From: a bacterium
Lineage (GTDB): Bacteria > UBA4055
Length of the DNA: 64,000 bases
Assembly: GCA_029559475.1 (NCBI GenBank)
Contig: JAKQBN010000055.1
Span: 62,001 to 126,000, forward strand
Direction: 5' to 3'
Shown piece by piece: positions 41,567 through 51,523 of the stretch. A program made the position numbers and the translations under genes. Within the stretch, counting starts at the first letter, position 1. Each line of letters opens with the position of its first letter. Below the pieces are notes generated by a model. The model ran no database searches. It had not been told where the DNA came from and worked only from the letters and a program-made list of their open reading frames with translations.

Positions 41567-44392
41567 ATGTGCATTCAATCGGAAGCGACTTTAGAGAAAA
41601 AACTCATCGAGCAGCTTGAAATTCAGGGCTATGAAAAGGTCATTCTGCATGATGAAAAAGATCTTATTTCGAATTTTAAGACGCAGTTGGAAAAGCACAA
41701 TAAGACGATTTTTTCGAAATCAGAGTTTAATAAGATACTCAATCATTTAGACGGCGGAACGATATTCGAGAAATCGAAAAAGCTGCGCAATAAGTTCGAG
41801 CTTTACAGAGATGTCGGCACTCTTTCCTACATAGAATTTTTTAATACAGAAGAATGGTGCAAGAACGAATTTCAGGCATCAAACCAGATAAATTTGGCGG
41901 AAAGGTACAAGAACCGCTACGATGTGACGATCCTGATAAACGGGCTGCCTCTCGTTCAGATCGAACTTAAAAGGCGCGGGATCGAGCTCAAAGAGGCATT
42001 CAATCAAATATGCCGCTATAAAGATCATTCGTTCAGGGGACTCTTTTTATACCTCCAGCTTTTCATCATCTCGAACGCGGTCAACACAAGATATTTTGCG
42101 AATAACAGAACGCTTAATTTTAAGCAGAGCTTCTGCTGGACGGATGAGAAGAATGAAAAATTCAACAGGCTGAACGAATTCGCCGATATTTTCCTGGAAA
42201 AATGCCATCTCGCCAAGATCATTTCAAAATATGTCGTCCTGAACGAATCCGATAAATTTTTAATGGTGCTCAGGCCATATCAATATTACGCGGCTGAAAA
42301 GATAATCAAGCGCGTAGCCGGAAAAGTTGACCGGAACGGCTATATCTGGCACACGACCGGATCAGGCAAGACGCTCACTTCATTCAAGGCGAGCCAGATA
42401 CTGACCGCTGACAAGGATGTGGACAAGGTCGTCTTTGTCGTTGACAGGAAAGATCTCGACTTCCAAACCATGAAGGAGTTCAATAAATTCTCGAAAGGCT
42501 CGGTTGATGCGACTGACGACACCATAATGCTCGTTAAACAGCTTTCCGACGAAAAGACGAAGCTTATCATAACAACGATACAGAAGCTCAACAATGCGGT
42601 CAGCAGGGTCAAATTCAACAATAAACTCGGCGACGTATCTAATAAGCGTATAATATTTATTTTTGACGAATGCCACAGGAGCCAGTTCGGCGAAACCCAC
42701 AAAAGGATAAAAGATTATTTTAAGAACAGGCTTTTCTTCGGCTTTACGGGCACTCCGATATTCGAGGAGAACAGCGTAGGGTTTACGACTACGAAAGATC
42801 TTTTCGGGTCATGCCTGCACAAATATATCATCAAGGACGCAATAGACGACGATAATGTGCTCGGTTTTTCCGTCGAGTACTATTCCACTTTCAGGTCAAA
42901 ACTTCTAAAGGAAGAGAACGGGGATGATCTCGACGTGGATGAAATGGATAAGGTAAAAGGCATCAACAAAGATGAGGTGTTTTCAGCGGATGTCAGGCTG
43001 TCAAACATAGTTGATTTTATCATAAAGAATCACGACAGAAAGACATATAACAAGGAATACAACGCGATATTCGCGGTAAGCTCAATTGAGACGCTTTTAA
43101 AATACTATGAGCTTTTCAGGAAGAAAAAGCATAACTTAAACATAGCGACGATCTTTTCATATCAGGCGAACGAGGAGCTTGAGGATCAATACGGCAACCA
43201 TAACGAGAGAGAGAACTGGAGCATGGTGGCTGAGGAGAGAGCACCTTACGGCGATAAGCAGGTTCATTCGAGAGAAAAGCTCGATCTGATCGTGAACGAT
43301 TATAACAAAACTTTCAAGACGAACTTCGACCTGAACAAGGACAACGGCTTCAACGCATATTTTGTGGATGTTTCCAAAAAGGTGAAGGAAAAGAAGATAG
43401 ACATTCTACTTGTGGTCAACATGTTCTTAACGGGATTCGACAGCGTTTTCACCAATACTCTGTATGTGGATAAGAACCTGCGCTATCACGGGCTTATTCA
43501 GGCATTTTCGAGAACGAACAGGGTGCTTGGGGAAAAGAAGAAATACGGCAATATCGTCTGCTTCAGAAACCTCAAGAAGAGAACAGACGAAGCGATAGTT
43601 TTATTTTCTAATCCCGATGCGATAGAAACCGTTTTAATGAAAGCCTACACGGAATACGCTGCAGATTTTAACAAAGCTCTCGAAGAGCTAAAAAACATCA
43701 CACCGACAATAGATTCGGTTGACAAGCTCGAAGGCGATGAGCAGAAAGCACTTTTCGTCAAAGCTTTCAGGAACCTTTTACGGATCATGAACAGGCTTGT
43801 GACCTTCACCGAATTCAAATATGACGATCTGACCATTACAAGGCAGGAATTTGAGGATTACAGGAGCAAATATTTAGACATCCGCGACGAAACGAAAGAC
43901 CCTGATAAGGAATCTATCTTAAAAGACCTCGATTTTGAGGTCGAACTTGTGCGCAGGGACGATATCAATGTGGATTATATCTTAAAGCTGTTAAAAGACC
44001 TCGACATGAACGATTCCGGATTTGTTAAAGACGTGGAATTTATCTTAAAGACCATGGAAGGCTCGGACGAACTCCGCAGCAAGCGCGAACTGATCGAAAG
44101 GTTCATTAAGGAAAACCTGCCGGAATTAGGCACAGACGCGAATGTGGAGGAAGAATTCGACAAATTTATCTCGGTCGAAAAGGAAAAAGAGATAGGGGAG
44201 ATGATAAGATCAGAAAAGCTGAACAAAGAACTCGTTTACGCAGTGGTCGAGGAATATGAATTTTCGAACAAATTCCAGCGCGATAAGATCAAATCGGCAC
44301 TCGTCGGCAACCTTAAACTCTCGGAACGGAAAAGAAAGATCGAACAATTGGAAAACAGCATAGAAAGCATCGTGAATAAATATAAATGGTAG
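41567..44392 (+). CDS. hsdR: Type I restriction enzyme R subunit (HsdR)
   Basis: Motor and nuclease subunit of a type I R-M complex, 941 aa. Order: N-terminal PD-(D/E)XK nuclease with VQIELKRRG (Glu and Lys near residue 131), helicase Walker A HTTGSGKT (near 262), DECH box IFDECHRSQFG (near 365), FGFTGTPIFEE, and motif VI-like QAFSRTNRVLG. The C-terminal helical part is rich in charged residues. Length is in range. It is followed by hsdM (7 bp), so the system is R-M-(DUF1016)-(unknown)-S. Cleavage requires HsdS, which is broken here. Confidence 0.96.
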   Translation: MCIQSEATLEKKLIEQLEIQGYEKVILHDEKDLISNFKTQLEKHNKTIFSKSEFNKILNHLDGGTIFEKSKKLRNKFELYRDVGTLSYIEFFNTEEWCKNEFQASNQINLAERYKNRYDVTILINGLPLVQIELKRRGIELKEAFNQICRYKDHSFRGLFLYLQLFIISNAVNTRYFANNRTLNFKQSFCWTDEKNEKFNRLNEFADIFLEKCHLAKIISKYVVLNESDKFLMVLRPYQYYAAEKIIKRVAGKVDRNGYIWHTTGSGKTLTSFKASQILTADKDVDKVVFVVDRKDLDFQTMKEFNKFSKGSVDATDDTIMLVKQLSDEKTKLIITTIQKLNNAVSRVKFNNKLGDVSNKRIIFIFDECHRSQFGETHKRIKDYFKNRLFFGFTGTPIFEENSVGFTTTKDLFGSCLHKYIIKDAIDDDNVLGFSVEYYSTFRSKLLKEENGDDLDVDEMDKVKGINKDEVFSADVRLSNIVDFIIKNHDRKTYNKEYNAIFAVSSIETLLKYYELFRKKKHNLNIATIFSYQANEELEDQYGNHNERENWSMVAEERAPYGDKQVHSREKLDLIVNDYNKTFKTNFDLNKDNGFNAYFVDVSKKVKEKKIDILLVVNMFLTGFDSVFTNTLYVDKNLRYHGLIQAFSRTNRVLGEKKKYGNIVCFRNLKKRTDEAIVLFSNPDAIETVLMKAYTEYAADFNKALEELKNITPTIDSVDKLEGDEQKALFVKAFRNLLRIMNRLVTFTEFKYDDLTITRQEFEDYRSKYLDIRDETKDPDKESILKDLDFEVELVRRDDINVDYILKLLKDLDMNDSGFVKDVEFILKTMEGSDELRSKRELIERFIKENLPELGTDANVEEEFDKFISVEKEKEIGEMIRSEKLNKELVYAVVEEYEFSNKFQRDKIKSALVGNLKLSERKRKIEQLENSIESIVNKYKW

Positions 44393-44399
44393 GCAATAA

Positions 44400-45947
44400 A
44401 TGACAAAGCAGAAGCTCGAACGGAAATTATGGGACATAGCGGACACTTTACGCGGAAATATGGGTGCGGATGAATTCAGGGACTATATTCTCGGCTTTAT
44501 TTTTTATAAATTCTTATCGGAAAAGATCGAAAAATTCGTTTCAGATGAGCTTAAATCGGACAAATTGAGCTTTGAAGAGGCTATGAAGGATAAAGAGCTT
44601 TCGCATGACTTAAAAGAGGAATGTATCGAAGATATGGGCTTTTTTATCGAACCGGCAAACTTATTCAGCAGGATAGCGGAAAGGGCAAAGAACAGAGAGT
44701 TTATTATTGAAGATCTCGGCCGCGCTTTAAAATCGGTAGAGGAAGCCACCATCGGGCATAAGAGCGAGGAGGATTTCGCGGGGCTTTTTGAGGATGTTGA
44801 TCTTACTTCGACAAAGCTCGGAAGAACGGTTGAACAGAAGAACAAGCTCATTTCGGAAGTTATCAAGCACATAGCGGAAGTTGATTTCAGGCTTGAGGAT
44901 ACGGAGGCGGATGTTCTCGGCGACGCTTATGAATATCTGATCTCACAGTTCGCGAGCGGAGCGGGAAAGAAAGCGGGAGAGTTCTATACGCCCCAGCAGG
45001 TATCAAAAATACTGGCAAAGATCGTCACTACGGGCAAGACAAGGCTAAAATCTGCTTATGACCCAACATGCGGCTCGGGATCTTTACTTTTGAGGGTATC
45101 GAAGGAATGTAAAGTATCGGACTTCTACGGGCAGGAATTAAACACCACCACTTTCAACCTGGCGAGAATGAATATGATTCTCCATTCGGTCAAATACAAC
45201 GATTTTCACATAACGCAGGGAGACACTTTAGAAGAACCGCACGACCTCGACAAACGCTTTGAGGCAGTGGTAGCCAATCCGCCATTCTCCGCGCACTGGG
45301 CGGCAAACCAGACCTTCTTATCGGACGAAAGATTCAGCCCGTACGGAAAACTCGCGCCCAAAACAAAGGCGGACTTCGCATTCGTTCAGCACATGCTCTA
45401 TCAGCTTGACGAAAACGGAACAATGGCAATAGTCTTACCTCACGGAGTACTATTCAGAGGAGCAGCGGAAGGCGAGATCAGAAAATACATCATAGAGGAA
45501 AAAAACTGGCTCGATGCCGTCATCGGACTACCCGCGAACATCTTTTACGGAACATCAATACCCACAGTCATACTAGTATTCAAAAAATGCAGAACAGAAT
45601 CCGACAGCATACACTTCATAGATGCAAGCCGGTCTTACGAAAAAGCCAAAAATCAGAACAATTTACGCGATGAAGATGTCGAAAAGATCATAAGCACATA
45701 CAGGAACAGAACTCAGGAAGAAAAATACTCGCACTCAGCCTCAATAGAACAGATCAGGCAGAACGACTACAACCTAAACATTCCCAGATATGTCGATACA
45801 TTCGAAGAGGAAGACGAAATTGACCTCGATAAGATCGCGCAGGAACTCAAAAACATCGAAGCTGACATAAAACTCACAGACAAAAAGATCATCGCGCAGT
45901 GCAAAGAACTCGGAATCACCCCGCCCGTGTTTGGAGGAGAAAAATGA
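44400..45947 (+). CDS. hsdM: Type I restriction-modification methyltransferase (HsdM)
   Basis: N6-adenine methyltransferase subunit, 515 aa. Helical HsdM_N domain (LERKLWDIADTLRGNMGADEF), then SAM motif I DPTCGSGSLLL, catalytic motif IV ANPPFSAHW and TDY-like later motifs. AGEFYTPQQVSKIL is the standard HsdM entry to the catalytic domain. Its TGA overlaps the ATG of the DUF1016 gene (ATGA). Without an intact specificity subunit, methylation depends on whether the truncated HsdS still assembles or another HsdS exists elsewhere. Confidence 0.97.
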   Translation: MTKQKLERKLWDIADTLRGNMGADEFRDYILGFIFYKFLSEKIEKFVSDELKSDKLSFEEAMKDKELSHDLKEECIEDMGFFIEPANLFSRIAERAKNREFIIEDLGRALKSVEEATIGHKSEEDFAGLFEDVDLTSTKLGRTVEQKNKLISEVIKHIAEVDFRLEDTEADVLGDAYEYLISQFASGAGKKAGEFYTPQQVSKILAKIVTTGKTRLKSAYDPTCGSGSLLLRVSKECKVSDFYGQELNTTTFNLARMNMILHSVKYNDFHITQGDTLEEPHDLDKRFEAVVANPPFSAHWAANQTFLSDERFSPYGKLAPKTKADFAFVQHMLYQLDENGTMAIVLPHGVLFRGAAEGEIRKYIIEEKNWLDAVIGLPANIFYGTSIPTVILVFKKCRTESDSIHFIDASRSYEKAKNQNNLRDEDVEKIISTYRNRTQEEKYSHSASIEQIRQNDYNLNIPRYVDTFEEEDEIDLDKIAQELKNIEADIKLTDKKIIAQCKELGITPPVFGGEK

Positions 45948-47065
45948 AATATGATAAACTTATAGAAATACTTGAGACAACTCATTCAGATATGCAGTAT
46001 CAGGCTTTCAGATCCGTTGATATTGCGTTAATTATCCGTAACTGGCTGTTCGGATTTTATCTGGTCGAATATGAGCAGAACGGTGAAGACAGGGCTGAAT
46101 ACGGCGCAAGGCTGATTGAAAATATCTCCCAAGATTTAAGAAACAAAGGTGTCAAAGGCGTTTCACCCACAAATCTGAAAAAGGACAGAGAGTTTTATAT
46201 TGAGTATAAACAAATTCGACAGACAGTGTCCGTCGAATCTTTGGTTCAGCCTCAAAAAAAAGCAACCTCAGGCACAAATATCCAAATTCGACAGTCAGTG
46301 ACCGTCGAATTGGCAAAACAATTCAAATTAAGCTGGACGCATTATGTTAGTCTGTTGACCATTGACGATATAAATGAAAGAAAATTCTACGAGATAGAAT
46401 CGATAAACAATTCGTGGGGCGTAAGAGAACTCAAAAGACAGATCGCTTCTTCGTTGTATCAGCGGCTTTCAGTCAGTAAGAATAAGGCTAAATTGAAACA
46501 GCTGTCTCAAAAAGGTCAGATCATTGAAAAACCTGAAGATTTCATAAAAGATCCGTTTATACTTGAATTTGCCGGAATAAAAGAAAAGAGCCGGTACTCA
46601 GAATATGATCTTGAAACAGCGCTTATAAACAAACTGGAAATGTTCCTTTTAGAGCTTGGCAAAGGCTTTTTATTCGAGGCAAGACAGAAAAGATTCACAT
46701 TTGACGATGACCATTATTATGTTGATCTCGTATTTTACAACAGACTGCTTAAATGTTATGTTCTGATTGATCTCAAGCGCGATAAACTTACGCATCAGGA
46801 TCTCGGTCAGATGCAGATGTATGTGAACTATTTTGACAGATATGTTAAGCTTAAAGATGAAAATCCGACAGTCGGGATCGTATTGTGCCACAGGAAAAAT
46901 GACGCTTTAGTAGAACTCACACTCCCTGAAAATTCTAATATATTCGCTTCAAAATACAAATTATATTTACCGACAAAGGAAGAATTAAAACGGCAGCTTG
47001 TAAAAGAAATAGGTATGGTCAAAGAAGAAATGGCACTTTACGGAACTCAGCGGAAAGGAGAATAA
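45944..47065 (+). CDS. DUF1016 (YhcG-type) PD-(D/E)XK nuclease-like protein
   Basis: A 373-aa protein: DUF1016_N domain (ALIIRNWLFGFYLVEYEQ, LSWTHYVSLL-type LSWTHY, WGVRELKRQI) followed by a nuclease domain with YYVDLVFYNRLLKCYVLIDLKRD (Asp then D-x-K) and QMQMYVNYFDRY. Such proteins commonly travel with type I R-M genes and are thought to be accessory nucleases; the exact role is unclear. ATG 45944 is used (upstream frame to 45899 lies inside hsdM). Two 25-nt palindromes at 46214 and 46286 encode repeated IRQTV/IRQSV peptides just before the LSWTHY motif. It ends at the ATG of the next gene. Confidence 0.9.
   Translation: MKYDKLIEILETTHSDMQYQAFRSVDIALIIRNWLFGFYLVEYEQNGEDRAEYGARLIENISQDLRNKGVKGVSPTNLKKDREFYIEYKQIRQTVSVESLVQPQKKATSGTNIQIRQSVTVELAKQFKLSWTHYVSLLTIDDINERKFYEIESINNSWGVRELKRQIASSLYQRLSVSKNKAKLKQLSQKGQIIEKPEDFIKDPFILEFAGIKEKSRYSEYDLETALINKLEMFLLELGKGFLFEARQKRFTFDDDHYYVDLVFYNRLLKCYVLIDLKRDKLTHQDLGQMQMYVNYFDRYVKLKDENPTVGIVLCHRKNDALVELTLPENSNIFASKYKLYLPTKEELKRQLVKEIGMVKEEMALYGTQRKGE
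46214..46238 (+). repeat. 25-nt palindromic repeat, copy 1, inside the DUF1016 gene
   Basis: ATTCGAC and GTCGAAT arms around AGACAGTGTCC; 11 of 12 base pairs match around a central G. Confidence 0.8.
46286..46310 (+). repeat. 25-nt palindromic repeat, copy 2, inside the DUF1016 gene
   Basis: Same arms around AGTCAGTGACC. It differs from copy 1 only at positions 10 and 16, which pair with each other (A-T becomes T-A). Confidence 0.8.
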
Positions 47066-47917
47066 ATGAAATCAGATTTTCAGAAATACTTGAACAAACA
47101 GAACAGCGGAGCATTAAACGACTTTGACGGACTTTCACCCGACACAATGCACAACATTCTGTATTCATCCTTCCAGAAAAACGGCCTGATCCGGATTAAC
47201 GCGGACATATCGGCTGAAGCTATAAATCAGGTGCCTGTCTTCAAGCTCGTCAAACATTTTATGCGGATACTTGAGCGTGAAAAACAGATAAAGCTCACAC
47301 AGGCCGAATACCTGCCTCCAAAGTATGTGAAGGAACTTTACGAAAGCACCGTACTCAAAGATGACGCGGTTGAAAGTGGAATAGTAAAGCTTACAGGCGA
47401 AAAAGATGTCATTATCATATTTGTTGCCCGCATTCTGGCCAAGTTATGCGGATATACAAAATTGAGGAACAATGTTATAACTATAACAAAAGCAGGCGAA
47501 CAGGCACTAACCGACGATCGGGAGCTATATTTCGGGTTAATGGACGCTCTCATATCTAAATTCAACTGGGGATTTGAATCCGTCAGACAGGACGACGGTT
47601 TCATCCAAAGGTCAGTCGGCTACACTTTATACCTTCTCAAAAAGTACGGGAACGAATACAGGGAATCAAGATATTACTACAACAAGTTCTTTAAAGCTTT
47701 CCCCGCCTCAATGAACGCGTTCGATTTCGATCCCGATCCAAAATATAAGACCATGTCTCACTGGTGGGCTTACCGTAACAGAATATTCAGAACATACCTG
47801 ACATACATGGGCGCGGTCGAATACGAGATCATCTATAATAAAGAGGAACACACCGAGACCGATCAGGTCAGAAAAACAAAATTGTTCGATGAAATATTCA
47901 CAATAAACATAAAATAA
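47066..47917 (+). CDS. Unknown protein embedded in the type I R-M locus
   Basis: A 283-aa protein I cannot assign. It begins with a charged helical part, then LSPDTMHNILYSSF, IKLTQAEYLPPKYVKELY (a small domain seen in some IS- or plasmid-associated unknowns), a hydrophobic helix VIIIFVARILAKLCGY, and a C-terminal half rich in Tyr, Phe and Trp (SHWWAYRNRIFRTYLTYMG). No signal peptide or catalytic motif is evident. It starts 1 bp after the DUF1016 gene and ends 11 bp before hsdS, so it is co-transcribed with both. An R-M accessory or anti-restriction role is conjecture. Confidence 0.7.
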   Translation: MKSDFQKYLNKQNSGALNDFDGLSPDTMHNILYSSFQKNGLIRINADISAEAINQVPVFKLVKHFMRILEREKQIKLTQAEYLPPKYVKELYESTVLKDDAVESGIVKLTGEKDVIIIFVARILAKLCGYTKLRNNVITITKAGEQALTDDRELYFGLMDALISKFNWGFESVRQDDGFIQRSVGYTLYLLKKYGNEYRESRYYYNKFFKAFPASMNAFDFDPDPKYKTMSHWWAYRNRIFRTYLTYMGAVEYEIIYNKEEHTETDQVRKTKLFDEIFTINIK

Positions 47918-47928
47918 GAACAGAAATA

Positions 47929-49026
47929 ATGAAAAGCCATTCAGATAAAAACACAAAACAACCAAAACTCCGCTTCCCCGGTTTCACAGAAGAGTGGCAG
48001 GAAAAAAGACTGGGGGAAATTGGGAAAATAACTACGGGTAGCACTCCGAGCACTTTCGTAGAAAAATACTATAACGGGGAATACCTATTCGTATCTCCTT
48101 TCGATATTAGTGATAAGAAATATATTTTTACTACACAAAAAACGCTTACTGAAGAGGGATTTAAGAAAACAAGAAATATCAAAAAATGCAGTGTATTATT
48201 TGTTTGTATAGGTTCGACAATAGGAAAAATTGCCGTAGCGGGTACGGATTTAGCGACAAATCAACAAATCAATGCAATAACATGCGAGCATGAAGCCCAG
48301 AACGAATTTGTTTATTACTCGTTATTGAAGAAAGCAGATCAAATAAAACTCATGGCTGGAGAGCAAGCCGTTCCGATAATAAATAAATCAAACTTTGAAA
48401 CTGTTAAGTTACCAATGACTTCACCAGCAGAACAAAAGAAGATCTCAGAATTCCTTTCCGACATAGACACAAAGATCGAAAAACTCACCCGCAAAAAAGA
48501 ACTCACCGAGCAGTACAAAAAAGGAGCAATGCAAAAAATCTTCTCGCAGAAAATCCGCTTCAAAGATGATAACGGAAAAAATTATCCTGACTGGCAAGAA
48601 AAGAGGCTGGGTGAGGTGGCTACGATAAAAAGAGGAGCAAGCTCTCAATATTTAAAATATGTTAATAATTCTTCTGAAGGTGTAAGGCTGATTAGAATCA
48701 CTGATTTCTTAGAAAGTGAACCAGTATTTATCAAGGAGAGTCTAGAATTAGATAGGTTCAAACTAAAAAAAGATGATATCCTTATTGCAGGTACTGGAGC
48801 AACAGCAGGTATTACTTTCAAAGTACCAGATAAATTTATCGGTATGGTTTATAGCTATAACGTTCCTCAGATCACTCCTGTTTCATGTGATCCTAATTAT
48901 TTAATTCAATTTCTCAAGTCCGATTCGATCTCTAAACAACAAGAAGGTTTATTTACAGGTAATGCACAGCATTTTTTAGACATAAAGGCAATTTCAAACT
49001 TGAAATTACCTTTACAATGTGCATAA
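47929..49026 (+). pseudogene. hsdS: HsdS specificity subunit, 3' truncated by IS21-family element
   Basis: Two target-recognition domains in the usual order. The first follows PGFTEEWQEKRLGEIGKITTG, the conserved coiled coil is around KISEFLSDIDTKIEKLTRKKE, and the second follows YPDWQEKRLGEVATIKRG. The reading ends KLPLQCA, where the IS left end begins at 49018; Cys364, Ala365 and the stop come from the IS. The C-terminal coiled coil expected after LKLPLP is missing (roughly 40-60 aa lost compared with usual HsdS). It may assemble poorly or as a half-type subunit. Confidence 0.88.
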
Positions 49027-49145: not shown

Positions 49146-50777
49146 ATGTCAAACAGGAGGCTTGATATGATAAATGTTCAACACCTGATACGGCAACTGG
49201 CTGAAGGCAAGTCGTATCGGGTAATAGGCACAAATCTGGCGATATCGCCGACAACTGTCAAGAAATATGCGAAGTATATCAGAAAGAACGGTCTTAATGT
49301 CGAAGAGCTTAAGGGAAAACCGCCATCCGAGCTGGAGACTATTATAGACATAGCGGATCCTGCAGAAAGGCAACGAGCGGAAGAAGCTTTAACATGTATC
49401 AGGAAACATGAAAGTTCTTTGGTTGCAAGGCGGCTGACACGAAAAGATGTCTATGAAAAATATAGAATAGATATAGAATCTCCTCTAAGCTACAGCCGTT
49501 TCTGCGTAAAAGTAGAAGATGAACTTAAGAAAAGCGGCGCAACAATGCACTTTAATCACAAGCCAGGCGACAAGCTGTTCGTTGACTTTGCCGGAGACAA
49601 GCTGTGTTATTATGAAAAAGAGACAGGCGAGAAGATATCTGTTGAGGTCTTTGTGGCTGTTCTCGGACACAGTCAGAAGACCTTTGTCTTTGCGGTACAT
49701 AGCCAGTGTAAAAACGATTTTATAGAGTCACTTAAGCGTGCGTTCGAATACTACGGAGGTATACCATGCGCGATAGTACCGGACAATCTGAAATCAGGCG
49801 TAAATAAAGCAAGCTTATATGAACCTGAAATGAACAGGAGCTTCAAACACTTTTGTGAACATTACGGCTGTTTTGCTTATCCCGCAAGGCCGCGTTCTCC
49901 AAAAGACAAGAGCCTTGTCGAGAATGCCGTAGGCAGAATGTACAGAGACATTTACACGCACATAAAAGCCTGTAAATACTACTCGATGGAAGAGTTGAAT
50001 GCGGCTATACTTGAAAAGCTTGAAGAATCGAACAATAAACCGTTCCAGCGTCGTGATTACAGCAGAAATGATCTTTTTGAAAGTAATGAAAAGGACTGCC
50101 TTAAGCCGTTGCCTTCAAACGAATATGAGACAGTAGATTTTTACAGTGCCACAGTCAGGCGCGATTATCATATCTGGTTCAGGCCTGACAAGCACCAGTA
50201 CAGCGTACCTTATGAATACATAGGCAAAACATTAAAAGTTATTTACAATACAGATACCGTAGAGATATTTTACGGATACACAAGAATAGCCTTGCATAAG
50301 AGAAACAGATCAAGATACGGCTTTACCACAAACCCTGAACATATGCCGGCAAATCATAAATACATGGCTGATCTTACTCCTGAAAATCTGATGAAGAAAG
50401 CTGAAGAAATAGGCGTTTATACATCATCTGTAATCGAAAAAATACTCGGATCAGGCAACTATTATGATCAGAGAATAAGAAGCTCAAGAGGAGTACTGTC
50501 GCTTGCAAATAAGCTCGGAAAAGAAATTATGGAACAGTGCTGTAAACGGGCTTTATCATACGGTATTTATAATTACAGACAGCTAAGAAACATAGCGGAT
50601 ATGAAGCTGTATCTTGAAGAAGATATAACCGTAACCGGCGGGTATATAGACAACCATCAAAACAAGAGAGGTGTTGAATATTATTTTGCGACACTTTTAC
50701 AGGAATCGTGTGACACTTTGACAAGAATCAGCTACAATAATACAGAAATACAAACGAAAACGGAGGCGGAATGTTAA
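49146..50777 (+). CDS. istA: IS21-family transposase IstA
   Basis: DDE transposase of 543 aa. N-terminal helix-turn-helix (LIRQLAEGKSYRVIGTNL, SPTTVKKYAKYI), an RNase H-like rve core with the first Asp in GDKLFVDFAGD, the second in AIVPDNLKSGV, and the Glu in SPKDKSLVENAVGRMYRD, then a beta-barrel C-terminal region (YSVPYEYIGKTLKVIY). All three acidic residues look intact, so it is probably active. It overlaps istB by 7 bp. Near its end, codons at 50700-50728 reproduce the IS right-end repeat. Confidence 0.96.
   Translation: MSNRRLDMINVQHLIRQLAEGKSYRVIGTNLAISPTTVKKYAKYIRKNGLNVEELKGKPPSELETIIDIADPAERQRAEEALTCIRKHESSLVARRLTRKDVYEKYRIDIESPLSYSRFCVKVEDELKKSGATMHFNHKPGDKLFVDFAGDKLCYYEKETGEKISVEVFVAVLGHSQKTFVFAVHSQCKNDFIESLKRAFEYYGGIPCAIVPDNLKSGVNKASLYEPEMNRSFKHFCEHYGCFAYPARPRSPKDKSLVENAVGRMYRDIYTHIKACKYYSMEELNAAILEKLEESNNKPFQRRDYSRNDLFESNEKDCLKPLPSNEYETVDFYSATVRRDYHIWFRPDKHQYSVPYEYIGKTLKVIYNTDTVEIFYGYTRIALHKRNRSRYGFTTNPEHMPANHKYMADLTPENLMKKAEEIGVYTSSVIEKILGSGNYYDQRIRSSRGVLSLANKLGKEIMEQCCKRALSYGIYNYRQLRNIADMKLYLEEDITVTGGYIDNHQNKRGVEYYFATLLQESCDTLTRISYNNTEIQTKTEAEC
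50700..50728 (+). repeat. IS right-end-like sequence inside istA
   Basis: CAGGAATC, then GTGTGACACTTTGACAAG, then AATC, nearly the same as the IS right end at 51565-51594 in the same orientation, but embedded in the istA coding region. Confidence 0.75.
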
Positions 50778-51523
50778 ACGAAAATACATTGTCAAAAATG
50801 AAAGAGATGAACCTGACAGGAATGTATGATGCATTTAAGCTAACTCTTAGCCTGAATGACTATAAGAAAATGACTTGCGATCAGCTAGCGGCATCTCTTG
50901 TTGACGCAGAATACGATAACAGGCGAAACAAAAGACTTGCCCAAAGGTTAAGTACAGCTAAGTTGCGTTATCCGGCATCAGCTGAACAGGTTGACTTTAA
51001 TGCGGATAGAAAGCTCGATAGAAACCTGTTCATGAGACTTACAGACTGCAACTACATCAGACAGGCTGAGAATGTTATAATCAGCGGTATGACGGGCACA
51101 GGTAAAAGCTATATAGCCTGCGCATTAGGACATCAGGCTTGTATAGCAGGATATAAAGTTATATATCACAACTTCAACAAACTCATGGCTAAGCTAGTAA
51201 TGTCAAGAGGAGACAACTCGTATCTAAAGGAAATAAATAAGATAGCCGGCTACGATCTTTTAATCATAGATGACTTCGGCCTACAAACAATGGATCATGC
51301 CTCAAACATATCACTCCTTGAAATACTCGAAGACCGCTACGGCTCGAAATCTACGGTCATAGCTTCTCAGATCCCGCCTGAAAACTGGTATGCTCTCTTC
51401 AATAGCTCAACTATAGCTGATGCCTGCTTAGACAGAATAATACATAATGCGCATAAAATGGATATTACAGGGGAATCTATGAGAAAGAATAAAAAGGTTG
51501 CAGCGAAGAAAAAGAATGGTTAA
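50771..51523 (+). CDS. istB: IS21-family helper ATPase IstB
   Basis: AAA+ ATPase that selects targets and stimulates IstA; 250 aa. N-terminal helical part (MKEMNLTGMYDAFKLTL), Walker A GMTGTGKSY, Walker B DLLIIDDFGLQ, sensor-like STVIASQIPPENWY and the closing LDRIIHNAHKMDI typical of IstB. GGAGG precedes its ATG inside istA. The final residues are a basic Lys tail. Length is normal. Confidence 0.96.
   Translation: MLNENTLSKMKEMNLTGMYDAFKLTLSLNDYKKMTCDQLAASLVDAEYDNRRNKRLAQRLSTAKLRYPASAEQVDFNADRKLDRNLFMRLTDCNYIRQAENVIISGMTGTGKSYIACALGHQACIAGYKVIYHNFNKLMAKLVMSRGDNSYLKEINKIAGYDLLIIDDFGLQTMDHASNISLLEILEDRYGSKSTVIASQIPPENWYALFNSSTIADACLDRIIHNAHKMDITGESMRKNKKVAAKKKNG

Follow-up and report, generated by a model that had tools for sequence, protein, structure and literature searches.

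The locus and its question

Why should the gene of a predicted nuclease contain, in frame within its coding sequence, two nearly perfect palindromes which differ by a single compensated base pair? The question is raised by a DUF1016/YhcG gene (45944–47065, plus strand) in a bacterial stretch of 64,000 nucleotides, called the window in the following. The gene encodes 373 amino acids with a DUF1016_N domain (residues 15–174) and a YhcG_C nuclease domain of the PD-(D/E)XK type (residues 199–352). Both domains pass the curated Pfam cut-offs (PF17761, 103.7 bits with a cut-off of 32.8; PF06250, 181.3 bits with a cut-off of 32.5), and the protein matches the PADLOC profile PDC-S02 with E = 3.2e-130, under which PADLOC lists the DUF1016 family as a candidate defence system. 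A prediction of 2005 had already placed YhcG (COG4804) among the PD-(D/E)XK nucleases of unknown function (PMC1189080). A search of the PDB sequences with the DUF1016 protein returned 0 homologues. The AlphaFold model of the C-terminal domain resembles EndoMS/NucS (2vld_A, Z = 10.9, rmsd 2.2 over 89 residues; 5gke, Z = 10.5). Judged by this model the nuclease fold is present, and DNA cleavage is predicted.

The gene is part of a type I restriction operon on the plus strand and follows hsdR (41567–44392) and hsdM (44400–45947). Directly 3′ to it, and before hsdS (47929–49026), lies a gene of 283 amino acids (47066–47917) without a match in Pfam, NCBIfam or PADLOC. This gene is likely a component of the restriction locus because its counterpart in the relative G005 is found at the same place and is 86% identical. 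Directly after hsdS, two open reading frames (49146–51523) look by eye like an IstA/IstB-like transposase pair of the IS21 type, and the C-terminus of hsdS may have been shortened by this insertion.

The first palindrome, ATTCGACAGACAGTGTCCGTCGAAT, spans positions 46214–46238 (centre 46226, core CAGAC). The second, ATTCGACAGTCAGTGACCGTCGAAT, spans positions 46286–46310 (centre 46298, core CAGTC) and has one further pair beyond the 25 bp, so that AATT…AATT frames it at 46285–46311. In each copy 11 of the 12 pairs are complementary, with A·C at positions 8/18 as the sole exception. The only difference between the copies lies in the mutually paired positions 10 and 16 (A-T in the first, T-A in the second), and both encode in frame the peptide I-R-Q-[TS]-V-[ST]-V-E. 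Coordinates, pairing and the compensated change had been described in an earlier note on this DNA and were all borne out when we re-read the sequence. The note had also proposed to look for further copies. With up to three mismatches allowed, none was found besides the two in the DUF1016 gene, neither in the window (chance expectation 0.00) nor in the 2.28-Mb genome.

A palindrome typical of the DUF1016 family

About 340 loci yielded 269 non-redundant DUF1016 genes, in which palindromes were counted at a score of at least 9 (strict score). We found 231 palindromes in 192 genes, compared with 3–12 in each of 20 synonymous-codon shuffles which keep the protein and the codon usage. The palindromes are therefore far beyond chance; 77 of the 269 genes have none at the strict score. 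Expressed as density, DUF1016 genes carry 1.11 sites per kb versus 0.147 per kb in the other open reading frames of the same loci. Nearly all sites precede the LSW[ST]H motif, and 219 of the 231 have an odd length and are centred on codon position 1. The common format is AATT, a variable arm, a centre of the CA-N-TG type, a second variable arm and again AATT. Sites are 25–33 bp long, the encoded unit comprises nine residues, and adjacent sites within one gene are preferentially 39 bp apart from centre to centre (15 cases). Homologues in other genomes and in viral contigs have a palindrome at the corresponding position and in the identical frame; their arms differ. Carriers are found across bacteria, archaea and phages and include Methanoculleus, Nitrosomonas, Lachnospiraceae, Chryseobacterium, Spirochaetia and Verrucomicrobia. 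In one subfamily (L063, L066, L061 and L057) a second palindrome, 108 bp away from the first, lies in the conserved helix-coding stretch YGK-xIVVTLSRQL; here the palindrome encodes a structured protein element, beyond a linker.

Could these sites be coding-region palindromic repeats, that is, selfish or structural inserts which no host protein reads? The earlier note had considered such an insert of the kind known from Rickettsia. Rickettsia palindromic elements (RPEs) are indeed frame-keeping palindromes inside coding sequences (PMC4316617), and PARCELs are horizontally spread coding repeats with dyad-symmetric DNA (PMC2996958); neither kind of coding palindrome has a known reader (PMC4316617, PMC2996958). 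The DUF1016 sites are likewise in frame, their number varies (one to three in Escherichia coli alleles) and they favour the 39-bp spacing. RPEs, however, measure about 100–150 nt and are scattered over unrelated genes and spacers, whereas the sites described here are 25–33 bp long, occur at equivalent positions in the genes of one family and at the gene edges, and in the window genome have no further copy. PARCELs differ as well: they are 75-nt repeats of 25 residues in surface proteins with imperfect symmetry and no known reader protein (PMC2996958), in contrast to a nine-residue unit with a spacing mode of 39 bp. In the genomes searched, cognate sites number 0–3 per genome, nearly all at DUF1016 loci. 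A dispersed repeat was rejected since the pattern is unscattered in G000, G054, G005 and G012. A search with the E. coli yhcG palindrome gives essentially the yhcG site alone; the median of two places per genome is most simply explained by one palindrome matching on both strands. Together with the residue–base code described below, the lack of scatter makes an unread repeat extremely improbable.

Conservation of the palindrome at the DNA level

From gene to gene the arms vary almost without constraint, and the 289 sites comprise 180 distinct half-sites; yet the left and right arms stay complementary. At offsets 3, 7 and 8 the letters of the two arms share 1.50–1.60 bits of mutual information out of an entropy of 1.75–1.81 bits, which is near the maximum. 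The encoded peptides are diverse (IRQTVSVE, IVVTLSRQ, ILHAVRGE, IAQSLIAQ, IGSALRSQ). The protein sequence therefore is not the cause of the palindrome. The earlier note had named homologues encoding the same peptides by non-palindromic DNA as the outcome that would speak against its proposal; the DUF1016 homologues display the opposite, as the peptides differ while the palindrome stays.

Long perfect stems, and outer arms which vary and remain complementary within a gene, would also suit a stem–loop in the mRNA or in an antisense RNA that acts in translation control or processing. The sequence data argue against such a hairpin. The innermost pair (±1) would lie unpaired in the loop of a hairpin, and yet its letters are coupled in all GC quartiles, with odds ratios of 4.5–6.8 versus 1.45 elsewhere in the genes, when sites are chosen by offsets 3–9 only. 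Moreover, RNA tolerates G·U, whereas synonymous wobble-side transitions to G·T and A·C are equally rare (8.3% versus 7.3%, p = 0.48). A raw skew in the mismatches (29 G·T versus 47 A·C) is gone after normalisation to wobble-side synonymous changes only. An Rfam scan of the palindrome region gave nothing, and sites also occur beyond the gene. Since the ±1 pair is coupled and A·C and G·T are equally rare, the palindrome is most likely a duplex-DNA site and not an RNA hairpin. The hairpin, which the earlier note had considered, is largely refuted and in our view highly unlikely.

When the copies of one gene are compared, offsets 2–6 (the inner core) prove better conserved than the outer offsets 7–9, at which about 45% of the comparisons show a difference. 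The differing outer positions are still complementary in 38 of 53 cases at offset 7 and in 40 of 54 at offset 8. A dimer which purely reads sequence does not need complementary outer arms that differ between copies, and DNA structure (a cruciform) or templated mutation may for this reason contribute to the outer arms.

The alleles of E. coli yhcG illustrate this variation. They contain one (O157), two (L107 type) or three (K-12, A24) internal palindromes; O157 lacks, in comparison with A24, 78 bp, which correspond to two 39-bp units. The core CAGAC…GTCTG is constant, and so is LP[WR]-S-T-Y-V, the equivalent of LSW-S132-HY-V135, in every E. coli allele read. The arms vary in a compensated manner (CGCCAGAC…GTCTGGCG, GTGCAGAC…GTCTGCAC and CTCCAGAC…GTCTGGAG), with changes between close alleles of the type CGC/GCG, CTC/GAG and GTG/CAC. 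In an E. coli B strain (L104, 3300–3880) yhcG breaks off precisely where internal palindrome 3 ends on its 3′ side, followed by about 470 bp with an open reading frame of 101 amino acids annotated as transposase, and the yhcG match of other strains stops at the same base. We dropped the idea of an insertion at the palindrome in E. coli B as the right junction is a general boundary of the variable gltD–nanQ region.

Compensated changes between such close alleles, like the complementary outer arms, might also arise if mutation templated by the other arm (quasi-palindrome correction) kept the arms identical without selection. Self-templating may contribute to perfecting the arms. As the whole explanation it is very improbable, for it accounts neither for the fixed format and the centre on codon position 1 nor for the enrichment over other open reading frames, nor for the code which links the site to residues 132, 135 and 160 of the protein.

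A code between residues and bases

We scanned 217 genes with a site for covariation between offsets 3–9 and the 249 protein columns outside the palindrome-coded stretch (1743 tests, average-product-corrected mutual information). At the top stand residues 132 (z = 11.9) and 160 (z = 10.6) at offset 3, far above the rest, followed by residues 135 (z = 5.9) and 160 (z = 3.7) at offset 4; the next value, an unrelated one, is 3.4. Column-wise corrected mutual information is needed to see this, since a sliding-window comparison of half-site and protein similarity gave weak partial correlations only (at most 0.12). In the window gene the residues are T132 within LSW-T-HY (codon ACG, 46337–46339), V135 (GTT, 46346–46348) and V160 within W-x-V-R (GTA, 46421–46423), all on the plus strand.

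The code is simple. At offset 3, S132 goes with A (101 of 103 A sites), T132 with V160 goes with T, T132 with A, T or S160 goes with G, and G132 with R160 goes with C. At offset 4, V135 goes with G, I or L135 with A and R135 with C (31 of 34). In the arginine cases (R160 with G132, and R135) the opposite strand carries G, the base that arginine usually contacts.

Trained only on proteins that are less than 35% identical, residues 132 and 160 give the offset-3 base in 134 of 146 genes (92%), whereas the nearest relative gives it in 34% and the majority base in 11%. Among sister pairs at 50–65% identity, residue 132 is kept in 91% of those with a common base and in 20% of those with differing bases. 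When permuted within clades, the observed association was reached in 0 of 1000 cases. The rule is kept in 222 of 244 sites, at distances from residue 132 that run from 6 to more than 36 codons; linkage within one DNA palindrome is therefore excluded. We also froze the table and tried it blind on a further 22 non-redundant genes, taken from new genomes and from plasmids (Fusobacteria, cyanobacteria, Rhodococcus, Deinococcus, Bacteroides and others). The prediction was correct in 15 of 15 cases at offset 3 and in 13 of 16 at offset 4, for genes which are 50–77% identical to training genes and thus not fully independent.

Another reader, for instance a subunit of the type I restriction–modification system or a host factor, could be proposed, in which case residues 132, 135 and 160 would covary with the site through gene history only. 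Some members, the window gene included, do sit in hsd operons, and the earlier note had thought of a site for the restriction–modification machinery. This idea finds no support, as the family is also found where hsd genes are lacking, for instance with E. coli yhcG and on many plasmids. As the association moreover survives both the training below 35% identity and the permutation within clades, we consider another reader very unlikely. The covariation instead supports the other proposal of the note, by which the site is symmetric and would be bound by the encoded nuclease.

Returning to the window, positions 10 and 16 are the offset-3 pair, that is, the very base pair which covaries with residue 132, and the compensated change is thus meaningful, as the note had surmised. 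Gene conversion, which the note had also brought up, would be a hypothetical source of this matched change. T132, V135 and V160 of the window protein predict the core CAGTC. This is copy 2, whose offset-3 pair (46295/46301) is the T-A expected for T132 with V160. In copy 1 the pair (46223/46229) is A-T, the letter of S132, which makes this copy one of the 22 exceptions among the 244 sites. The relative L004, whose protein is 80% identical, carries S132, and all its sites have A (CAGAC, CGGAC). Because copy 2 fits T132 and V160 while copy 1 and the relative keep the A of the S132 type, the window gene looks, from sequence comparison, as if it were midway through a change of specificity with one site switched and the other not. 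Copy 1 would then have retained the older letter. L057 has the same pattern, with T132 and V160, A in the distal site and T in the proximal site.

Sites outside the gene, cassettes and empty loci

Up to 400 bp from DUF1016 genes there are 90 palindromes, whereas about 14 are expected. The core of the own gene is shared by 19 of 60 flank sites versus 4.5 for random genes. In the 35 flank sites of AATT format the offset-3 base is the one predicted from the own protein in 19 (8.6 expected; 0/1000), and both bases are as predicted in 15 (4.1 expected); 16 of the 35 misfit the adjacent protein. Flank sites cluster at −16 to −89 and at +11 to +90, near both gene ends; the 11 of 19 upstream sites found within −16 to −89 are only suggestive of an operator. 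Two genes of the S132/V135/V160 type (L285, L278) are adjoined downstream by palindromes of another DUF1016 type (TGCAAGT…ACTTGCA), as if left by a different cassette.

Two DUF1016 genes (L071 and L012) are bracketed by direct repeats of about 50 bp which consist of a palindrome and adjacent unique sequence. A third such unit is solitary, 23 kb away and without an adjoining DUF1016 gene. A DUF1016-less unit of this kind is L360 in G005. At another locus (L194, gene at 1431–2625) near-identical direct repeats of about 80 bp bracket the gene, and the palindrome in them, a different one (AAAAACAGTTGAGnAACAACTGTTTTT), misfits the code of the protein. At the window locus hsdM is about 97% identical in DNA to two relatives up to the start of the DUF1016 gene, the DUF1016 genes differ, and identity resumes at the gene end, with the 283-residue gene kept as the right-hand neighbour of the swapped cassettes. 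Because identity drops at the start and returns at the end of the gene, this is, as judged from the alignment, a cassette exchange of the DUF1016 gene.

E. coli offers an empty site. Strain Nissle, which is without yhcG, has one perfect palindrome between gltD and nanQ. In K-12, two palindromes bracket an 8.3-kb island from gltF to yhcG: the one after gltD has the left flank of the Nissle site and the one after yhcG its right flank. The empty gltD–palindrome–nanQ junction is covered to at least 80% by 943 E. coli genomes.

Mobility might even come first. The palindrome would then be the cleavage or insertion site of a single-gene cassette; solitary recipient sites would be cut, repair would copy the bracketed gene in, and the intragenic copies would be by-products or recombination points. 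The empty E. coli site with its divided flanks, the DUF1016-less unit of G005, the 50-bp repeats, the swaps between conserved neighbours and the flank sites near both gene ends all speak for this scenario. However, the insertion of a classical homing gene destroys its target, whereas the carriers studied here keep intact sites inside and beside the DUF1016 gene. The K-12 island is 8.3 kb long and includes unrelated fimbrial genes, host functions can also recombine bracketing repeats, and neither target-site duplication nor transposition was seen. Beside the window gene there is no flanking palindrome at all. We hold homing as the primary role to be a serious option, though one we would bet against.

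Proposed role of the self-encoded site

We suggest that DUF1016/YhcG is a sequence-specific DNA-binding nuclease of two-fold symmetry which would bind as a dimer. A two-fold site is plausible as the modelled C-terminal domain folds like EndoMS/NucS, a homodimeric nuclease. The cognate site would be the palindrome of about 25–27 bp with one central base pair, placed in frame in the own gene and often repeated at the gene edges. The DUF1016_N domain would read the inner half-site, with base pair 3 specified by residues 132 and 160 and base pair 4 by residue 135 along with 160. Protein and site would evolve jointly, which would give each gene its private site. That the nuclease binds its own palindromes is, we believe, very probable. 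Physical binding and dimerisation are what we infer from the computed features: the palindrome and its structural conservation, its DNA-level character, the residue–base code, the cognate flank sites and the empty site with one palindrome. A freely cut own site would destroy the own gene, and nuclease activity must therefore be conditional.

The purpose we likewise infer. The gene changes loci as a cassette, and an operator inside the coding sequence would therefore let the nuclease find and restrain its own gene at any locus, by roadblock autoregulation or by sequestration. Such a travelling operator would keep a potentially harmful nuclease under control at any new locus; we put this role forward tentatively, as somewhat less than an even chance. 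The copies at the gene ends may also mark cassette ends and insertion points. This second role, more doubtful still, would explain the empty and the bracketed loci. The two roles are compatible and both can be true. Taken as a whole, the explanation by a symmetric self-site nuclease, co-evolution of site and protein, a travelling operator and cassette ends appears likely to us.

Among known systems the REPtron (TnpA-REP/RAYT with REP) is similar in that cognate palindromes are found near a nuclease gene and that protein and palindrome types diverge together (PMC8266576, PMC2817692). RAYT, however, is a Y1/HUH single-strand nuclease and DUF1016 a PD-(D/E)XK protein, and REPs are mostly genome-wide, extragenic hairpins with GTAG/CGTC tags, whereas the DUF1016 site is a duplex palindrome in frame in the gene which is not dispersed in high copy number. 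The Rpn proteins, PD-(D/E)XK nucleases of the horizontal gene pool, have hypervariable in-frame repeats and intragenic self-control (PMC10327210). A small protein translated from within the gene exerts this control, the repeats form helix units of four residues, and a palindromic DNA site is not reported (PMC10327210). In the open-access full text searched, we found no report on palindromes or a recognition code in DUF1016. Relative to this literature the self-encoded site and its code are new.

YhcG/DUF1016 is present in E. coli K-12 and many phyla and after 20 years has no assigned function beyond its listing as a defence candidate. Through a self-encoded site and a predictive code, YhcG gains a target and a testable biochemistry, and the specificity of uncharacterised members can be read from sequence. 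We think it quite probable that a nuclease family of bacteria, archaea and phages encodes its own recognised site in frame, together with a code, and moves as a self-addressed cassette whose target marks empty sites. If this is true, it would be an unusual case in which one DNA stretch is both coding sequence and cognate protein-binding site, with a DNA constraint shaping the peptide. The gene would then unite protein, target and a record of specificity in a single molecule, and should the code transfer to binding, DUF1016 would be a designable palindrome reader.
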